Position numbers and translations under genes: made by a program | The notes under the pieces: model-generated | Database searches by the model: none | What the model saw: the letters and a program-made list of their open reading frames with translations, nothing else | What the model was told of the DNA's origin: nothing | Shown here: positions 3,698-44,114 of the stretch, one piece after another | Position numbering within the stretch: the first letter of the stretch is position 1 | Layout: each line of letters opens with the position of its first letter | NCBI RefSeq assembly: GCF_000298075.1 | Contig: NZ_JH815593.1 | Location: forward strand, 339,519-403,518 | From: Staphylococcus massiliensis CCUG 55927 | Lineage (GTDB): Bacteria > Bacillota > Bacilli > Staphylococcales > Staphylococcaceae | Direction of reading: 5' to 3' | DNA: 64,000 nt

Positions 3698-4673
3698 AAT
3701 TTCATATTTAGATGCGATTCACCAAGCACTTGATCAAGCTATGGCTAAAGACGACCAGGTTTACTTACTAGGTGAAGATATCGGTAAGAAAGGCGGTGTA
3801 TTCGGCGTAACGAAAGGCTTACAAGATAAATACGGTTTATACCGTGTGCTTGATACGCCGCTCGCTGAATCTAATATCGTCGGTACTGCGATCGGTTCCT
3901 CTATGGTAGGTAAACGACCAGTTGCGGAGATACAGTTTGCTGAGTATATTTTACCTGCGACCAATCAAATTATGAGTGAAGCGGCTAAGATTCGTTACCG
4001 TTCGAATAACGATTGGAACTGCCCACTTACGATTCGTGCGCCATTTGGTGGCGGTATTCATGGTGCTTTATATCACTCACAAAGTATCGAAAGTGTCTTT
4101 GCATCAACGCCTGGTCTCACAGTTGTTATCCCTTCATCACCATATGACGCGAAAGGCTTATTGCTTGCTTCAATTGAGTCCAATGACCCTGTCTTATACT
4201 TCGAACATAAGAAAGCTTATCGCTTATTAAAAGAAGAAGTGCCTGAAGATTATTACACAGTGCCTTTAGGTAAGGCAGATGTAAAACGTGAAGGTAGCGA
4301 TTTAACCGTCTTTACATATGGTTTATGCGTCAATTACTGCCTTCAAGCTGCCGATATGCTTAAAGAAAAAGGTATTGAAGTAGAGGTTGTCGACCTTCGT
4401 ACCGTGTATCCGCTTGATAAAGAGACAATTATCGAACGCGCGAAAAAGACAGGTAAGAACTTACTTGTTACCGAAGATAATCTTGAAGGTAGCGTCATGT
4501 CAGAGGTTGCTGCAATCATCGCTGAAAATTGTTTATTCGACTTAGATGCACCGATTATGCGTCTAGCGGGTCCTGACGTGCCTGCGATGCCGTTCGCGCC
4601 GCCACTTGAAGATGAGTTTATGATGAACCCTGAAAAGATTAAAGCTAAAATGAAAGAGCTTGCGGAATTTTAA
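3690..4673 (+). CDS. bkdA2: Branched-chain 2-oxoacid dehydrogenase E1 beta subunit
   Basis: 327 residues from ATG 3690, preceded by GAAGGGAG inside the end of bkdA1. An in-frame extension to 3546 lies wholly within bkdA1 and is rejected. Family features include the LGEDIGKKGGVFGVTKGL segment, TPLAESNIVGTAIGSSM, the EIQFAEYILPA region and a C-terminal GPDVPAMPFAPPLE motif. It forms the alpha2-beta2 E1 heterotetramer with BkdA1 and contributes to the thiamine diphosphate site. Twelve bases separate it from bkdB. Confidence 0.9.
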   Translation: MAKISYLDAIHQALDQAMAKDDQVYLLGEDIGKKGGVFGVTKGLQDKYGLYRVLDTPLAESNIVGTAIGSSMVGKRPVAEIQFAEYILPATNQIMSEAAKIRYRSNNDWNCPLTIRAPFGGGIHGALYHSQSIESVFASTPGLTVVIPSSPYDAKGLLLASIESNDPVLYFEHKKAYRLLKEEVPEDYYTVPLGKADVKREGSDLTVFTYGLCVNYCLQAADMLKEKGIEVEVVDLRTVYPLDKETIIERAKKTGKNLLVTEDNLEGSVMSEVAAIIAENCLFDLDAPIMRLAGPDVPAMPFAPPLEDEFMMNPEKIKAKMKELAEF

Positions 4674-4685
4674 GGAGGGCCTACG

Positions 4686-5981
4686 ATGGAAATTAAAATG
4701 CCTAAATTAGGTGAAAGTGTGCACGAAGGGACAATTGAACAATGGTTAGTTAAAGAAGGCGACACAGTTGAAGAATATGATCCGCTTTGTGAAGTTATCA
4801 CAGATAAAGTTACAGCCGAAGTGCCATCTTCATACGCGGGTACGATTACTGAAATTATCGCAATTGAAGGAGAAACCATCGAAGTTGGAACAGTCATTTG
4901 TAAGATGGTGGTAGAAGGTGATGATAGTGCGGACAATGAGCCAACGTCTGATGCCGAGGATGCACAATCTGAAAGTCCGTCTCAAGACACTTCCTCTTCT
5001 GAAAAGCCAAATAAAGATAATCAGGCGCAAACGTCTAAACCTGCTTCAAATCAACCTAAGAACAATGGTCGTTATTCACCAGTTGTCTTTAGATTAGCGT
5101 CAGAACATAATATTAACTTAGCCGATGTTGAAGGTACAGGTAACTTAGGACGTGTTACTAAGAAAGATATCGAACGTGTTATTCAAGAAGGCCCAAGTAC
5201 AGCTATTGATCAAACGAGCGCTGAGCCATCATCTCAAGCACCACAAAGCACACCTACAACAGCTTCAAGCGATGACCATGCCAATGCTTCAAGTATTCCA
5301 GTAGATGGTGTTCGTCGTCAAATCGCGAACAAGATGGTACAAAGTGTTACAGAAATTCCACACGCATGGATGAAAGTAGAAGTCGATGCGACAGAGCTTG
5401 TTAAAACAAGAAACCATTACAAGAAAGACTTTAAAAAGAACGAAGGCTATAACTTAACGTTCTTCGCCTTTTTCGTAAAAGCAGTCGCAGAAGCCTTAAA
5501 ACAATTCCCAATGCTTAACAGTAGTTGGCAGGGTAGCGAAATTAAAGTCCACAAAGACATCAATATTTCTATTGCGGTCGCTTCAGAAAACAAGCTTTTC
5601 GTGCCTGTGATAAAGCACGCCGATGAAAAGTCCATTAAAGGTATCGCGCGTGAAATCGACAGTTTAGCTCATAAAGCACGCAATAACCAATTAACACAAG
5701 CCGATATGGAAGGTGGTACCTTCACTGTGAATAACACAGGTTCATTCGGTTCAGTCTCTTCAATGGGTATTATCAATCACCCTCAAGCGGCTATCTTACA
5801 AGTCGAATCAATCATTAAACGCCCAATGGTCATTAACGATATGATTGGTATTCGTGATATGGTGAACTTATGTATCTCAATTGACCATCGTATCTTAGAC
5901 GGTTTAATGGCCGGTCAATTTATCAACTATGTTAAAGACCGTATTGAGTCATATACCATTGAACATACGCAAATCTTTTAA
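4686..5981 (+). CDS. bkdB: Lipoamide acyltransferase E2 of branched-chain 2-oxoacid dehydrogenase
   Basis: 431 residues with the standard E2 order: one lipoyl domain (residues 1-76, lipoylated lysine K41 in EVITDKVTAEVPS), a long Ser/Gln/Pro-rich linker, a peripheral subunit-binding domain (about 122-158, YSPVVFRLA...LGRVTKKDI), a second flexible linker, and the catalytic domain from about 205 to the end. The acyltransferase motif DHRILDG is near residue 404. It forms the core of the complex and moves the acyl group to CoA. AAGGAGG precedes the ATG. It is the last gene of the operon; a separate promoter follows. Confidence 0.92.
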   Translation: MEIKMPKLGESVHEGTIEQWLVKEGDTVEEYDPLCEVITDKVTAEVPSSYAGTITEIIAIEGETIEVGTVICKMVVEGDDSADNEPTSDAEDAQSESPSQDTSSSEKPNKDNQAQTSKPASNQPKNNGRYSPVVFRLASEHNINLADVEGTGNLGRVTKKDIERVIQEGPSTAIDQTSAEPSSQAPQSTPTTASSDDHANASSIPVDGVRRQIANKMVQSVTEIPHAWMKVEVDATELVKTRNHYKKDFKKNEGYNLTFFAFFVKAVAEALKQFPMLNSSWQGSEIKVHKDINISIAVASENKLFVPVIKHADEKSIKGIAREIDSLAHKARNNQLTQADMEGGTFTVNNTGSFGSVSSMGIINHPQAAILQVESIIKRPMVINDMIGIRDMVNLCISIDHRILDGLMAGQFINYVKDRIESYTIEHTQIF

Positions 5982-8383: not shown

Positions 8384-8506
8384 AAACTTGATGGTGAAAC
8401 TCTAATCAAGTCTCATGCTCTTTCAAACTTGATGACGAAACTCTAATCAAGTCTCAGACCCTCTGGAACTTGATGAGCAATTCCTAATCAAGTCTCATTA
8501 TAGAAT
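8384..8506. repeat. 41-bp tandem array, family 1, copy a (3 units)
   Basis: Units start at 8384, 8425 and 8466, exactly 41 bases apart. Each has ACTTGAT, a linker containing GAAAC (or GCAATTC in the third unit), then ATCAAGT and a C-rich stretch. ATCAAGT of one unit and ACTTGAT of the next are perfect 7-base inverted arms around a 15-base loop. It lies between the terminator of paralogue 3 and the convergent gene at 8540. It is related unit by unit to the array at 9411. Confidence 0.9.
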
Positions 8507-9410: not shown

Positions 9411-9610
9411 AGACTTGATGGTGAAACTCTCATCAAGTCTCAGGCCCTTTGAAACTTGATGACGAAACTGTAATCAAGTCTCAACCCCTTCCAAACTTGA
9501 TGGCGAAACTCTAATCAAGTCTCAGACCCTTCCAAACTTGATGAGCAACTCCTAATCAAGTCTCAGGCCCATCCAAACTTGATGGCGAAACTCTAATCAA
9601 GTTTCGCTAC
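9411..9610. repeat. 41-bp tandem array, family 1, copy b (5 units)
   Basis: Units start at 9411, 9452, 9493, 9534 and 9575, all exactly 41 bases apart, with the same arms ACTTGAT / ATCAAGT as the array at 8384. The unit at 9534 carries the variant linker GAGCAACTCCTA, matching the third unit of the other array, which shows common descent. Nothing in it looks coding. Confidence 0.92.
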
Positions 9611-28387: not shown

Positions 28388-28475
28388 CCTTCACGACGAC
28401 TTTATTGCGACTTAACATGGTGTTTACAATGGTCAGATATACTATTCTCATAAAGAGAGAAAGAGGTGGACGTTG

Positions 28476-29501
28476 ATGCAACGTGTTATGAAAGTTATCG
28501 CGGTATGCGTGATGATGCTCAGTGTACTTAGTTTCGTGCCACAACAAGCTGACGCATCAGAGAAGTTAAAAGAGGGTGAAACATTTCATCTAACGGTATT
28601 ACATAGTAATGATTGGCACGGTCATTTGGATGATACGACGAAGCTTGAGAATGGTAAGATGCATGAGAACAATGTTGCGAAGTACGCGACGAAGATTAAG
28701 GAAGTTAAGCAACAAGAAGATAACGTGCTTGTCCTTGATGGCGGTGACTTGTTCTTACGCGGTGAGTTCGAAAGTGCTGAAGGGGACCTTGAAACGAAGC
28801 TTATGAAGAAGATGGGTTATGACGGTTTAGTAATCGGTAATAATGATTTCCGCGTACATCCTGCCGGTACAGGTGACCCAGCACAACGTGATGCATTCTT
28901 AAAGAATTATCAAAAGAACGCGAACTTCCCGTTACTACTTGGTAACGTGATTGATAAAGATACGAATGACTATATGAAGATGACTGACCCGTATCATACG
29001 TATACGTTTAAGAAAGGCGTTAAGATCGGTGTAATCGGGTTAACGTCGATGAAACCTGAGAACCGTAAGTGGAACGATGTTAAGGATTTAGATTTCATCG
29101 AGCCTACCAAAGCACTTAAGAAATTAGTGCCTGAAGTAAGTAAGAAATCTGATGCGAATATCGTGTTGTCGCATGTTGGTAATAAAGGCGACCACGACTT
29201 AGCGAAACATCCTGGTGTTTCAGCTGTACTTGGTGCCGATACGCATAAAGTGATTAAAGGCGGCGCTGAATATGAATCTAACGGTCATGAAAACGTACCG
29301 ATTACACAAGGCGGTGGCGAAGAGGAACATTACCTAGGTCGCCTGAACTTAACGTATAAAGTTAAGAACGGACAGCTAGAGCTTGTAGATTCTAAGGATA
29401 AGTTATACGATATCGAGAATGTCAAAGCTGATCCAAAGATTAAACATATGATTGATGAATATCGCGCTGATATGAAAGACGATCAAGGTCAAGCTGCGTA
29501 G
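28476..29501 (+). CDS. Secreted metallophosphatase, 5'-nucleotidase-like
   Basis: 341 residues. A signal peptide (basic start QRVMKV, hydrophobic core, cut near ADA-SEK at residue 28) indicates export. The metallophosphoesterase motifs are in order: LHSNDWHGH, VLDGGDLF, IGNNDFRV, LSHVGNKGD, LGADTHKV. The separate C-terminal substrate domain of full 5'-nucleotidases and any LPXTG anchor are missing, so it is probably a free one-domain enzyme. Start ATG 28476 has AGAGGTGG upstream. Substrate unknown, perhaps nucleotides. Confidence 0.78.
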   Translation: MQRVMKVIAVCVMMLSVLSFVPQQADASEKLKEGETFHLTVLHSNDWHGHLDDTTKLENGKMHENNVAKYATKIKEVKQQEDNVLVLDGGDLFLRGEFESAEGDLETKLMKKMGYDGLVIGNNDFRVHPAGTGDPAQRDAFLKNYQKNANFPLLLGNVIDKDTNDYMKMTDPYHTYTFKKGVKIGVIGLTSMKPENRKWNDVKDLDFIEPTKALKKLVPEVSKKSDANIVLSHVGNKGDHDLAKHPGVSAVLGADTHKVIKGGAEYESNGHENVPITQGGGEEEHYLGRLNLTYKVKNGQLELVDSKDKLYDIENVKADPKIKHMIDEYRADMKDDQGQAA

Positions 29502-29543
29502 GGTAATCTTTGGATGGTATGGCTTGCTGTGGTAAGCGGTGAA

Positions 29544-29566
29544 AAGCTGCTTGCCGCAGCTTTTTT
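29544..29566 (+). terminator. Terminator of the metallophosphatase gene
   Basis: AAGCTGC / GCAGCTT stem with a TTGCC loop and following TTTTT. Confidence 0.75.
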
Positions 29567-29640
29567 GGTTGGTGCGGGGGACGGGCGGTCGTAGGGGTTG
29601 AGAGAATAGAAGCGATTGTATGAAATAATCTCAATTTGAA

Positions 29641-30220
29641 ATTACAAGATTTTTGGAACGAGTAAATATAGCGGGTTTAAAATTACAAGACTACAGAAAC
29701 ATGTAAATCAAACGGGTCTAAATTTACAAGACTTCCGAAACGTGTAAATGAAAGGGCTTCAAATTTACAAGACTTTCGAAACGTGTAAATGAAAGGGCTT
29801 TAAATTTACAAGACTTCGAAAACGTGTAAATCAAAGGCCTCCAAATTTACAAGACTACATAAACGTGTAAATCAAAGGGCTCTTTATTTACAAGACTCCG
29901 TAAACGTGATAAACCGACGCCCTCCGTTTATCAAGAAAGATGAAACGTGATAAACCAACTGCCTCTGTTTATCAAGAATACCGAAACGTGATAAACCGAC
30001 GGCCCCCGTTTATCAAGAAAGCGGAAACGTGATAAATGAACGGCCTCTGTTTATCAAGAAAGAGAAAACGTGATAAATGAACGGCCTCCGTTTATCAAGA
30101 AAACGGAAACGTGATAAACCGACGGCCTCCGTTTATCAAGACTGCGAAAACGTGATAAACCGACGCCCTCCGTTTATCAAGAAAGATGAAACGTGATAAA
30201 CCGACGGCCCCCAAAATTAC
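29641..30220. repeat. 41-bp tandem array, families 2 and 3 (14 units)
   Basis: The ACAAG/TCAAG core recurs at 29645, 29686, 29727, 29768, 29809, 29850, 29891, 29932, 29973, 30014, 30055, 30096, 30137 and 30178, every step exactly 41 bases; a degenerate last unit is near 30220. The first seven units use arms TGTAAA / TTTACA; from 29905 the arms are TGATAAAC / GTTTATCA. The linker always ends in GAAACG (or TAAACG, AAAACG). No reading frame runs through it. It lies between convergent genes. Confidence 0.93.
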
Positions 30221-30268
30221 AAGATCCCACAATCATGCAAACCTACGACCGCCCCTCAAAGCAGTCCA

Positions 30269-30290
30269 AAGAAGCGCCGTGCTTCTTTGC
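30269..30290 (-). terminator. Possible terminator of the aldo/keto reductase gene
   Basis: AAAGAAGC / GCTTCTTT stem with a 5-base loop right after the gene; there is no good T-run, so termination is uncertain. Confidence 0.4.
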
Positions 30291-30306: not shown

Positions 30307-31215
30307 TTAATCTAAGTGATTCGTATACTCTAAGTCTTTAACACGATTACGTGCAGCTAAAACTTTATCTGCCTTAACAAGGTCTTCGTATTGCTTAACG
30401 TTCTGTTCGATTTGTTCTACTGAGCTAGCGCCTGTAATGATAGAGCCCATAGCGTTGAACGATCTTAAGTAGCTGAATGACAAGCTAGATAAATTATGGT
30501 CTACCTCTTTAATAGAAGCAATTGTTTCGTCTAACGTTTCGTAATCGTAGTCGAAAATACCATCTTTAAATTTACGGTCTAGCACGTCGTTGCTTTTCTC
30601 AGTGAGAAGACCTTTAAATACAGGACCGCGTGCAAGTACTTTCACTTCATTAGCATGAACTTTGTCCATCAGTGATTCAGGGCGATTGTCGATAAGGTTG
30701 AATTGAGACATTAACGTTTCAATATCGCTATGTTCAAGGTAGTAGTTAATCACATTCGGGCGAATAGACGAAATACCATAAGCTTTCACATAGCCTTCTT
30801 GTTTCAATTCATCAAAAGCACTAATCGTTTCATCTAACGGATCGTCAATCGTACCACCGTGTAGTTGATATAAATCAAGGTGATCGAGTTGAAGACGTTT
30901 TAGAGAACCTTTAACGCTTTCTTTAATATACTTTTTAGAAGGGTCCCAAAACGTTTCGCCATTATCTTTAAGATGATTACCGACTTTCGTACCAATCACG
31001 ATATCGTCGCGGTCTTGGTACGGCTTCAACGCTTCACCGACAATTTCTTCATTAATCCCTTTATCATAAATGTCAGCGGTATCAAAATAGGTAATACCGA
31101 GTTCTAAGGCACGTTCGATAATTTCTGTAGCATATTTTTTGCCAGTACCTAAACTCATACAACCTAAGCCTAACTCAGAAATCTCAATACCGCTCTTTAA
31201 AGTATTCTTTTGCAT
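30307..31215 (-). CDS. Aldo/keto reductase
   Basis: 302 residues from the ATG at 31215 with AAGGAG eight bases upstream; the in-frame TTG at 31221 is too close to that site. The family motifs are GLGCMSLGTGKK, the catalytic FDTADIYDKG (Asp, Tyr), IGTKVG (Lys) and LYQLHGG (His). A C-terminal GASSVEQIEQNV part fits NADP binding. Substrate unknown; these enzymes reduce aldehydes and ketones in the cytoplasm. Confidence 0.88.
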   Translation of the reverse strand: MQKNTLKSGIEISELGLGCMSLGTGKKYATEIIERALELGITYFDTADIYDKGINEEIVGEALKPYQDRDDIVIGTKVGNHLKDNGETFWDPSKKYIKESVKGSLKRLQLDHLDLYQLHGGTIDDPLDETISAFDELKQEGYVKAYGISSIRPNVINYYLEHSDIETLMSQFNLIDNRPESLMDKVHANEVKVLARGPVFKGLLTEKSNDVLDRKFKDGIFDYDYETLDETIASIKEVDHNLSSLSFSYLRSFNAMGSIITGASSVEQIEQNVKQYEDLVKADKVLAARNRVKDLEYTNHLD

Positions 31216-31305
31216 GGACAAGCTCCTTTCGTTATCATTTACTTAACATGTATTCAGTTTATCATATGAAACAACTAATCTTAATTAAAAGGGAACGTGA
31301 TGTAA

Positions 31306-38941: not shown

Positions 38942-39122
38942 ATTCATCTTCGGGGTCGGGTGCAATTCCCAACCGGCAGTAAATTAAGCCTGCGACCTGC
39001 ATAATCTAATTATGTGGCTGATCTAGTGAAATTCTAGAGCCGACAGTAAAGTCTGGATGGGAGAAGATGGAGGTTATTTCGCATGCATTTTAACCTCCTA
39101 TTCTTACGAGATGAATGGGAGG
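38942..39122 (+). promoter_or_regulatory. FMN riboswitch with ribosome-site sequestering platform
   Basis: The RFN aptamer is recognisable: GGGGTCGGGTGCAATTCCC, ACCGGCAGTA, AGCCTGCGACC, GCTGAT...GTGAAATTC, and AGAGCCGACAGTAAAGTCTG, closed by a P1 helix TTCATCTTC (38942-38950) with GAAGATGGA (39063-39071). Downstream, GGAGGTTA (39069-39076) can pair with TAACCTCC (39091-39098), while CCTCCTATTC (39094-39103) can pair perfectly with GAATGGGAGG (39113-39122), which holds the ribU ribosome site. FMN binding should therefore close the ribU start. Confidence 0.9.
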
Positions 39123-42776: not shown

Positions 42777-44114
42777 TTGTCTAGAGATAATTTCAAGGAC
42801 GATTTCGAACGCAATCGTCAAGCAATTAATCCAGAAGACACTAACCACGACTTAGATCGCGGTGAAGACAAAGGATTTAATGACTCATTTAATAACAATG
42901 AACAACCTTACCCACCACGAGGTGCACAAAGAAGACAACGCAGAAGAGATACTGCAACACGAAACAATCAAAACGACAAACAAGAATTCGAAGATGGCAG
43001 AAACGAACATCACGATGACCGTCGTGTCGAAGATAAACACTTAGATCGCGACAATCGTGACAATGAACGTTTCGATGATGACCGTCATGTGGAAGATCAT
43101 CATGATGATAAACAATCTAAAGGTAAAAAAGCAGGATTATTTGGTGGAGCTGGTGCTGTTGGAGCAGGCGCTGCAGCGAACAAAAAACATAAAGATGACT
43201 TAGAACACGATCATCCAACAGAACATAATGATAAAGCTGTTCGTCCTGACAAAGATGAAGACATCAAACATGACGATGATAAAAAACATAGTAATAAGAA
43301 AAAAGCTGCTGCCGGTGCAGGTGCCGCTGGAGCGGGCGCTGCTGGAGCTGGATTTGCAGCAAACAAAAACCGTCATGACGACCATGACCGTCACGATGAC
43401 TATGATCGCCGTGATGAGCATGATGATCGTGACTATGACGATTATGATGATGACGATAGAGATAAAGGCGGCGGTTGCCTTAAAAAATTATTACCTTTAT
43501 TATTAGCATTATTATTACTTGCAGCACTAGCTATTTGGGGTGCTACGCAATTATTTGATGGCGACGACAAGAAGAAAGAAGATAACAAAACTGAACAAAC
43601 TGATAAAAAATCTGACGAAGAAAAAGATAAAGATAAAGACAAATCTTCTGAAGAAAAATCTGACGAAGAAAAATCAGATGAGCAAAAATCTAACGAAGAT
43701 AAGTCTTCTGAAGAATCATCTAAAGACAAATCATCTGAAGAAGATTCATCAGATGAAGAAGGATCTAACGTAGGTCAACAAGCTGGAACAGCTGCTGGCG
43801 CTGGTGCAGCAGGTGCAGGTGCTGCTAATGCTGGTCAATCTGATCAAGCTAATGCAAACCAAGGTAACCAAGGCCAACAAGGTCAGCAAGGTAACCAAGG
43901 TCAACAAGCTGGCCAAGCTCAACAAGGCCAACAAGGTAACCAAGGTCAATCTGGTCAACGTGTTCACACAGTTTCAGGTAACCAAAACTTATATCGTATC
44001 GCTATCCGTTACTACGGTGAAGGTACACCTGAAAATGTTGACAAAATCCGTAGCGCTAACAACATTCAAGGTAATAACTTAAGCAACGGTCAACGTTTAG
44101 TTATTCCTGAATAA
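42777..44114 (+). CDS. ebpS: Elastin-binding protein EbpS-like LysM membrane protein
   Basis: 445 residues if it begins at the TTG at 42777 ([15 protein letters not shown]), which matches the known EbpS N-terminus and has AAAGGGTG upstream; a GTG at 42768 is within that site. It has a long charged Asp/His/Arg/Lys region, two Ala/Gly-rich runs, one membrane helix near residue 240 ([20 protein letters not shown]), an acidic Lys/Ser/Glu region, a Gly/Gln/Asn-rich region, and a C-terminal LysM domain ([18 protein letters not shown]). In S. aureus EbpS binds elastin; the ligand here is inferred. Several long open frames on other frames come only from the repetitive codons. Confidence 0.88.

Follow-up and report, generated by a model that had tools for sequence, protein, structure and literature searches.

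Within the window, the whole stretch of 64,000 nucleotides that was analysed from the genome of Staphylococcus massiliensis CCUG 55927, the genes of a calcineurin-like phosphoesterase and an aldo/keto reductase converge on a tandem array of 14 units, which are spaced by exactly 41 bp with zero indels when written in 41-base rows from 29635. The initial annotation had described these units at 29641–30220, and in-register alignment bears out their number, their exact spacing, the absence of any indel and the coordinates, while the strands of the flanking ORFs agree with the convergent intergenic setting that it proposed. A degenerate 15th unit (TTACAAGATCCCACAATCATGCAAA) stands at a spacing of 42, and with it the full extent of the array is ∼29638–30244. 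TRF scores for the array range from 293 to 458, and its regularity is far beyond chance. The features of the locus are given below, together with two arrays of a sister class (class C) that lie elsewhere in the window.

8384..8498, no strand assigned: sister-class C array, 41-bp period
9413..9605, no strand assigned: second sister-class C array in the window, 41-bp period
28473..29501, forward strand: left flanking gene, calcineurin-like phosphoesterase (PF00149, Pfam)
29542..29566, forward strand: intrinsic-terminator-like hairpin of the left gene, just 5′ of the array (by eye)
29583..29595, forward strand: left member of a perfect 13-bp inverted repeat on either side of the array, GGGCGGTCGTAGG
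29638..30244, core strand forward: whole array, 14 units at exactly 41 bp and a degenerate 15th at 42
29638..29880, forward strand: class A block with arms TTTA-CAAGA-N6-AAACGTG-TAAA, degenerate in its first units
29881..29921, forward strand: mixed unit (switch point), class A left arm (TTTACA) and class B right arm (TGATAAAC)
29922..30208, forward strand: class B block, arms GTTTAT-CAAGA-N6-AAACGTG-ATAAAC
30209..30244, forward strand: degenerate terminal unit with 2 of 5 arm pairs and a left arm like that of class A
30242..30254, reverse strand: right copy of the 13-bp exact inverted repeat, CCTACGACCGCCC
30268..30288, reverse strand: terminator-like palindrome of the right convergent gene (by eye)
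30307..31221, reverse strand: right flanking gene, aldo/keto reductase (PF00248, Pfam), locus conserved

Two arm classes follow each other along the array. Units 1–6 carry TTTACA/TGTAAA-type arms (imperfect in units 1 and 2), the unit at 29881 joins a TTTACA left arm to a TGATAAAC right arm, the seven units after it carry GTTTATCA/TGATAAA-type arms, and in the last unit the left arm is back to TTACA. The switch had been placed in this linker unit from the outset, and the mixed unit at 29881–29921 is indeed where it falls. The phosphoesterase gene was not detected at the equivalent locus in the 39 related loci tabulated, and may have arrived together with the array or near it. The SDR-AKR gap measures 63–108 bp in three relatives checked and is wider in two others (410 and 557 bp). 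In the 80 genomes surveyed at the syntenic fur locus, TRF found no tandem array with a period near 41; arrays of period 21–24 occur in 4 of the 80 loci.

The genome-wide search for 41-bp repeats that had been suggested as a check was run by BLASTN and returned 16 regions with window-type arrays in the S. massiliensis genome (2.37 Mb, 8 contigs; regions clustered by eye). Among units with at most two core mismatches, and counting spacings of 36–48, the spacing is 41 in 200 of 209 cases, 42 in three, 40 in one and 46 in five. The five 46-bp spacings are B-to-A junctions in five arrays, similar in sequence in the four inspected, which implies that whole composites have been copied; the five switches are probably one event. 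Neighbouring units here are only 82% identical on average, yet indels are almost absent, so that either the length of the unit is under constraint or the copying removes indels. Runs of N of several hundred bases, probably assembly gaps, lie in or near the long arrays of L002, L004, L016 and L197, where unit counts are therefore minima. Sister class C (ACTTGAT-12-ATCAAGT, 41 bp) occupies 21 places in the same genome, some of them with only one or two units. On contig C1, its 18 places are shifted towards the replication origin relative to a uniform distribution (p = 0.0019, in a test chosen after the positions had been seen), and its strand bias (13/18, p = 0.096) is left aside because its orientation is ambiguous. 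For classes A and B the distance from the origin is not significant (p = 0.051 in S. massiliensis; KS p = 0.26 in G103).

Other genomes were searched as well, as had also been suggested, with no real array match among the other genomes of the genus and with core arrays in three genomes of two other genera. When the array served as query, with up to seven candidates scored per genome, S. massiliensis alone matched among 84 genomes of the genus, a single 24-base match in G070 apart. Arrays with the core CAAGA-N6-AAACGTG and a 40/41-bp period are carried by 3 of the 156 other genomes of the order, a patchy distribution that amounts to 4 of 157 with S. massiliensis included. The core pattern matches 59 times in G103 (33 + 26), seven times in G096 (4 + 3) and four times in G098 (0 + 4); every other genome of the order has 0–4 core matches in all (157 genomes, S. 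massiliensis included), and the reversed-pattern control gives 0–3 in each of the 157. Scattered core matches fetched as a check from five genomes (L163–L167) are single and lie outside arrays. In a class sample of 398 genomes, G103, G096 and G098 not among them, the exact tandem pattern occurs in S. massiliensis only. The array and its core are unmatched in phages, plasmids and viral contigs, and a phage or plasmid origin was accordingly rejected. A literature search of open-licence papers returned no description of this repeat family, nor of a link between such repeats and the NERD-domain genes discussed below.

The period of about four helical turns, fixed in the window as first noted, is held at 40 or 41 across arrays (31 spacings at 41 and 33 at 40 in G103; 8/8 at 40 in genus g3). 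Most arrays of the other genera carry other arms, still largely complementary: in G103 ATTTAT/ATAAAT, close to class B, ATGATTG/CAATCAT, with two mismatches in L149, and TTATTAG/CAAATAA, with one fixed mismatch; in genus g3 GCCTCT/AGAGGC, perfect in one unit of L162 and imperfect in others. At L007 and L194, which belong to two genera, an MFS transporter gene and a 2′-5′ RNA ligase-like (LigT) gene enclose an array of the same orientation and of different arm classes, and flanks that are 62% and 63% identical make a convincing case for a shared site. The flanking proteins common to L122/L153 and to L130/L159 may likewise mark shared sites, a coincidence that could be due to chance. By mechanical ORF calls, the 36 array loci comprise 18 convergent, 15 co-directional, one divergent (a single unit) and two unresolved settings.

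Whether both arms change together, as the initial annotation held, was assessed in an alignment (A1) of 44 block representatives drawn from 303 units (299 without N) of four genomes, in which single-unit blocks are excluded except L157 and L160, with L161 thus absent and L191–L195 absent too. Of five covariation measures, three lie above every one of 500 shuffles and every slid control, their values being inflated by the relatedness of the sequences: 82.2% of the cells at six arm pairs are paired versus 56.0% after shuffling, doubly changed paired cells number 74, where shuffles average 31.3 (sd 3.9) and slid controls never exceed 15, and the covariation score is 0.563 versus 0.156. The two remaining measures stay within the shuffled range, namely how many pairs show a double change (5 versus 4.4, with 194 of 500 shuffles reaching this value) and how many further pair types occur (15 versus 14.8, with 285 of 500 reaching it). 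By our own reading, there are about five independent arm types. Directly beside the core, the pair is U-A in 18 representatives, A-U in 15 and G-C in 9, and RNAalifold recovers the identical helix unaided. The core is near-invariant across A1, and columns 1–4 and 31–34 are variable. Several blocks (e.g. L008, L149, L152 and L158) have fixed arm mismatches, so arm pairing is not strict. Because the arms keep most of their pairing when their sequence is replaced, a plain protein-binding palindrome, one of the two readings first offered, is unlikely for the arms. The other, a row of RNA hairpins, is not favoured, since G-T/T-G combinations fill 9 and A-C/C-A combinations 10 of 1196 cells at the four inner pairs.

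Which arms pair is a separate matter. The arms had been taken to pair across the C/G-rich loop and not across the GAAACG linker, a frame that fits the switch in the window itself and does not fit the ends of arrays. At 69 of 72 array ends, no half unit stands beyond the last whole arm-core-arm′ unit, the exceptions including one unrelated terminator sequence, and inverted units that adjoin arrays, two in L148 and one in L157, have both arms. Units are whole across the core, i.e. across the GAAACG linker, and not across the C/G-rich loop. Switch points alone do not decide the pairing frame: on our reading, the switch lies between units in seven cases (L004, L006, L009, L016, L020, L008 and L149) and within one in five, namely in L001, L002 and L014 and in the final units of L005 and L155; the window array belongs to these five.

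The genes beside the arrays share one domain more often than any other. Pfam scans took in 60 proteins from the flanks of 31 of the 36 array loci, nearly all of them encoded by the ORF closest to the array; L002 and L006 were scanned on a single side, and L004, L016, L020, L027 and L195 were covered by a profile search only. NERD was found in 5 of the 60, covering all four array-bearing genomes, MFS and GNAT reaching three each. The five genes adjoin arrays at L005, L158, L162, L155 (a partial protein, the gene running off the start of the locus) and L191. A profile built from these five, and so from five of the very genes it matched, gave matches at array loci only among 197 sequences; its 975-kb control is one syntenic locus from 80 genomes and carries no estimate of genome-wide frequency. 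By this profile a sixth gene was found beside class C (L197:3045-3935), with one repeat ∼0.9 kb upstream, a TetR-like gene between them, and four repeats from 13 bp after its stop codon. In all six cases the first core or arm lies 12–37 bp after the NERD stop codon. The chance product for five NERD genes beside arrays, 9e-11, is a guide only, for it takes gene density as roughly one per kilobase and supposes that no further NERD-family genes exist, and the link is positional and was noticed post hoc from the flanking genes. For most arrays, the 1–1.5 kb of flank examined contains no NERD gene, and none was seen for class B alone.

All six proteins match NERD (PF08378) at 47.2–57.5 bits, the Pfam gathering cut-off being 22.1. 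Identity is 25–34% between genomes or classes and 59% between the two g3 species, whose NERD loci are orthologous and hence not independent; the two S. massiliensis genes group together with 97/98 support. The proteins share G-x-x-G-E, D, (E/D)-x-K, Q and CxxC...CxxC motifs. Residues E37, D67, K82 and Q109, which we take to be those of a PD-(D/E)XK active site, and four cysteines are invariant in five aligned proteins, and the E, D, K and Q residues are also present in the sixth. Judged by these motifs, the array-linked proteins form one divergent family of predicted PD-(D/E)XK nucleases with a zinc-ribbon-like motif. Searches of phages, plasmids and viral contigs gave no match to the array-linked protein, and the best match among solved structures (E 0.048) is unrelated. 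The presence of a NERD gene behind an array in four genomes suggests, from position, a previously undescribed partnership of an enzyme and its repeats.

Arrays are also oriented with respect to replication. G103 is a single contig with DnaA-like and DnaN-like proteins at its start (by eye) and dif at 1,410,520; nine array places before dif lie on the forward strand and six after it on the reverse strand, i.e. 15/15 run from origin to dif (p = 6.1e-5), in a count that includes one lone unit (14/14 without it, p = 1.2e-4) and that would miss arrays lacking an exact core match. On contig C1 of S. massiliensis, where dnaA and dif were located, 10 of 13 arrays, the window array among them, have this orientation (p = 0.09), three further arrays lying outside this count on C2, C4 and C5. 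For both genomes combined the figure is 25/28 (p = 2.7e-5); polarity is complete in G103 and a trend in S. massiliensis, which is not significant alone. The convergent arrays of G103 follow the direction of replication in 6/6 cases, as does L193, against both of its neighbour genes. Origin-to-dif orientation means that the core strand is mostly the lagging-strand template. Folded as DNA, single units favour the core strand in 36 of 44 representatives, with three ties and five worse, the mean folding energy being −3.35 kcal/mol versus −2.82 kcal/mol for the complement. The two representatives of the window array tie, and the whole window array folds slightly better as the complement (−82.8 versus −79.9 kcal/mol for the core strand).

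Among known systems, the closest are REP/BIME elements, short extragenic imperfect palindromes that are described as dispersed and in regularly spaced clusters, with several families per genome, and whose cognate RAYT gene is flanked by its own repeats and linked to a single-strand/lagging-strand logic (PMC2817692, PMC6006769, PMC3733652); a CGTC REP superfamily is described as apparently without a dedicated transposase (PMC3733652). The present arrays are likewise extragenic imperfect palindromes in regularly spaced clusters, and their arrangement resembles a REPtron in that a gene adjoins its own repeats, but this gene encodes a NERD-domain protein, a predicted nuclease unrelated to RAYT, and the repeats are mostly on its 3′ side (L005, L155, L191, L158 and L162), with repeats on both sides at L197. 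Unlike REPs, the arrays conserve their centre and not a GTAG/CGTC foot (no conserved foot is seen in the 44 representatives of A1), and unlike REP clusters, their units all point the same way, head to tail, with the period fixed at 40/41 bp, the two inverted units of L148 and the one of L157 excepted. The Y1 transposase domain of RAYT (PF01797) has no match in G000, G103, G096 or G098, and is positive in 5 of 17 other and 5 of 14 control genomes. CRISPR arrays were rejected, since the spacers are not unique and are themselves repeated and similar.

STAR elements of staphylococci, a 14-bp direct repeat (TNTGTTGNGGCCC) with 40–44 bp spacers (PMC3532100; Cramton; Purves et al. 2012), are reported as intergenic, at species-specific sites, prone to expand and contract and marked by a G+C-rich motif (Purves et al. 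2012, PMC3532100). The present arrays resemble them in these features; neither covarying arms nor a linked nuclease is described for STAR in the excerpts of that source at hand, and TNTGTTGNGGCCC is absent from both strands of the window, so that an identity with STAR was rejected. In the same region, L034 of Staphylococcus lugdunensis has a G+C-rich sequence at 3800–4370 that is STAR-like by eye, with no exact STAR motif, and L047 of S. marylandisciuri has three true STAR motifs at ∼5029–5160; it is as if the intergenic neighbourhood of the array collected species-specific repeats. As to the protein, SmdA contains a NERD-like domain and is conserved in Staphylococcaceae, its description stating that the role of NERD in bacteria had gone unstudied (PMC9040797). 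SmdA has an N-terminal membrane helix and a gene beside metK; the array-linked proteins are set apart by description, having a CxxC...CxxC motif and different neighbours, with no membrane helix that is obvious by eye. BREX PglW and MADS6 kinases have the NERD domain in common with them (weak NCBIfam matches, far below curated cut-offs), and unlike these kinases the array-linked proteins show no match to a kinase domain.

The reading that we favour, and hold to be slightly more likely than not, is that these are REP-like intergenic hairpin repeats on which a NERD nuclease acts in the place of a RAYT transposase. The nuclease would recognize the folded unit while the lagging-strand template is single-stranded, and might discriminate between strands through an A·G mismatch near the base of the core; cleavage and repair at the folded unit could then copy or convert units. 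Arms would be free to change provided they pair, with core and unit length fixed by the protein, and arrays would survive at sites that tolerate insertion, for the most part 3′ of genes. More tentatively, and falling somewhat short of probable, the system may be a new genome parasite or chromosome-marking system, with head-to-tail hairpin arrays, replaceable paired arms, lagging-strand origin-to-terminus polarity and a dedicated NERD/PD-(D/E)XK hairpin nuclease whose divergence tracks that of its repeats; equally tentative is the part of this idea that gives each nuclease its own arm class (A/B and C in S. massiliensis, two in G103 and one in genus g3). REP-like repeats are common in bacteria and their known mover is the RAYT transposase, and here a different enzyme, a predicted nuclease, adjoins the repeats in four genomes of three genera. 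If the more tentative reading is true, the zinc-ribbon NERD protein gains a function and REP-like repeats a RAYT-independent route. A real pair would provide an explanation, open to testing, of hairpin repeats that form with no transposase, as well as a natural set of matched hairpin-nuclease pairs, and it would make visible a strand polarity tied to replication; the 41-bp array would become a member of a system rather than an isolated curiosity.

Other explanations account for parts of these data. A NERD or other protein might bind the duplex core on one helix face every four turns, organizing or marking the chromosome, with the hairpin incidental. The near-invariant core, the origin-to-terminus polarity, a 40/41 period held despite class-dependent arm length and the conserved C-terminal part of the NERD protein, possibly a helix-turn-helix (by eye), speak for such phased binding, but it leaves unexplained both the covarying arms outside the core and the position of arrays against the nuclease gene, and the two richest genomes have only 15–16 places of window type each; we regard it as unlikely. 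Selfish or neutral tandem repeats could instead spread through slippage and unequal recombination, template switching keeping the arms paired and lagging-strand slippage setting orientation, with no dedicated protein. Hairpin-forming repeats show orientation-dependent instability, template switching could make arms covary without selection, neighbouring units are on average 82–84% identical, and the 46-bp B-to-A spacing that recurs in five arrays indicates copied composites. Yet the core and period are conserved between genera, a NERD gene stands at an array in all four array-bearing genomes, and the distribution is patchy (4/157 in the order, S. massiliensis alone in the class sample of 398 that lacks the other three); simple slippage of one unit, named at the outset as a refuting possibility, leaves covariation between genera, polarity and NERD linkage unexplained, and slippage in general appears improbable.

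Transcription offers another angle, for the arrays might form hairpins in a regulatory RNA, an RNA sponge or a stabilizer in 3′ UTRs. The core strand is the gene strand in 12 of 15 co-directional loci, arrays lie directly 3′ of the NERD stop codon in 6/6 cases, and the RNA fold beats 20 shuffles (z −4.85), as expected of any such palindrome array; against this, G-U pairs are not in excess over A-C, replication direction is the better predictor of orientation (the six convergent G103 arrays and L193, as above) and the array has no Rfam match at the gathering threshold, which makes an RNA function very unlikely. About as improbable is an anti-invader system, with a NERD nuclease directed against foreign DNA and polar arrays that would mark the cell's own DNA or protect it. 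NERD domains do occur in defence proteins (the weak MADS6 and PglW matches), and MkoA is matched in PADLOC by 2 of 5 members (E = 0.0014), but all these matches are weak or far under curated cut-offs, those to MADS6 and PglW span the NERD domain only, and no defence genes were noted among the 60 flanking proteins scanned.

Two further features of the window lie apart from the arrays. An FMN riboswitch occupies 38942–39072, with an Rfam score well over the family cut-off, and coding-like tandem repeats of 9, 15, 27 and 45 bases lie at 43634–43959, perhaps in the gene of a repetitive surface or secreted protein.
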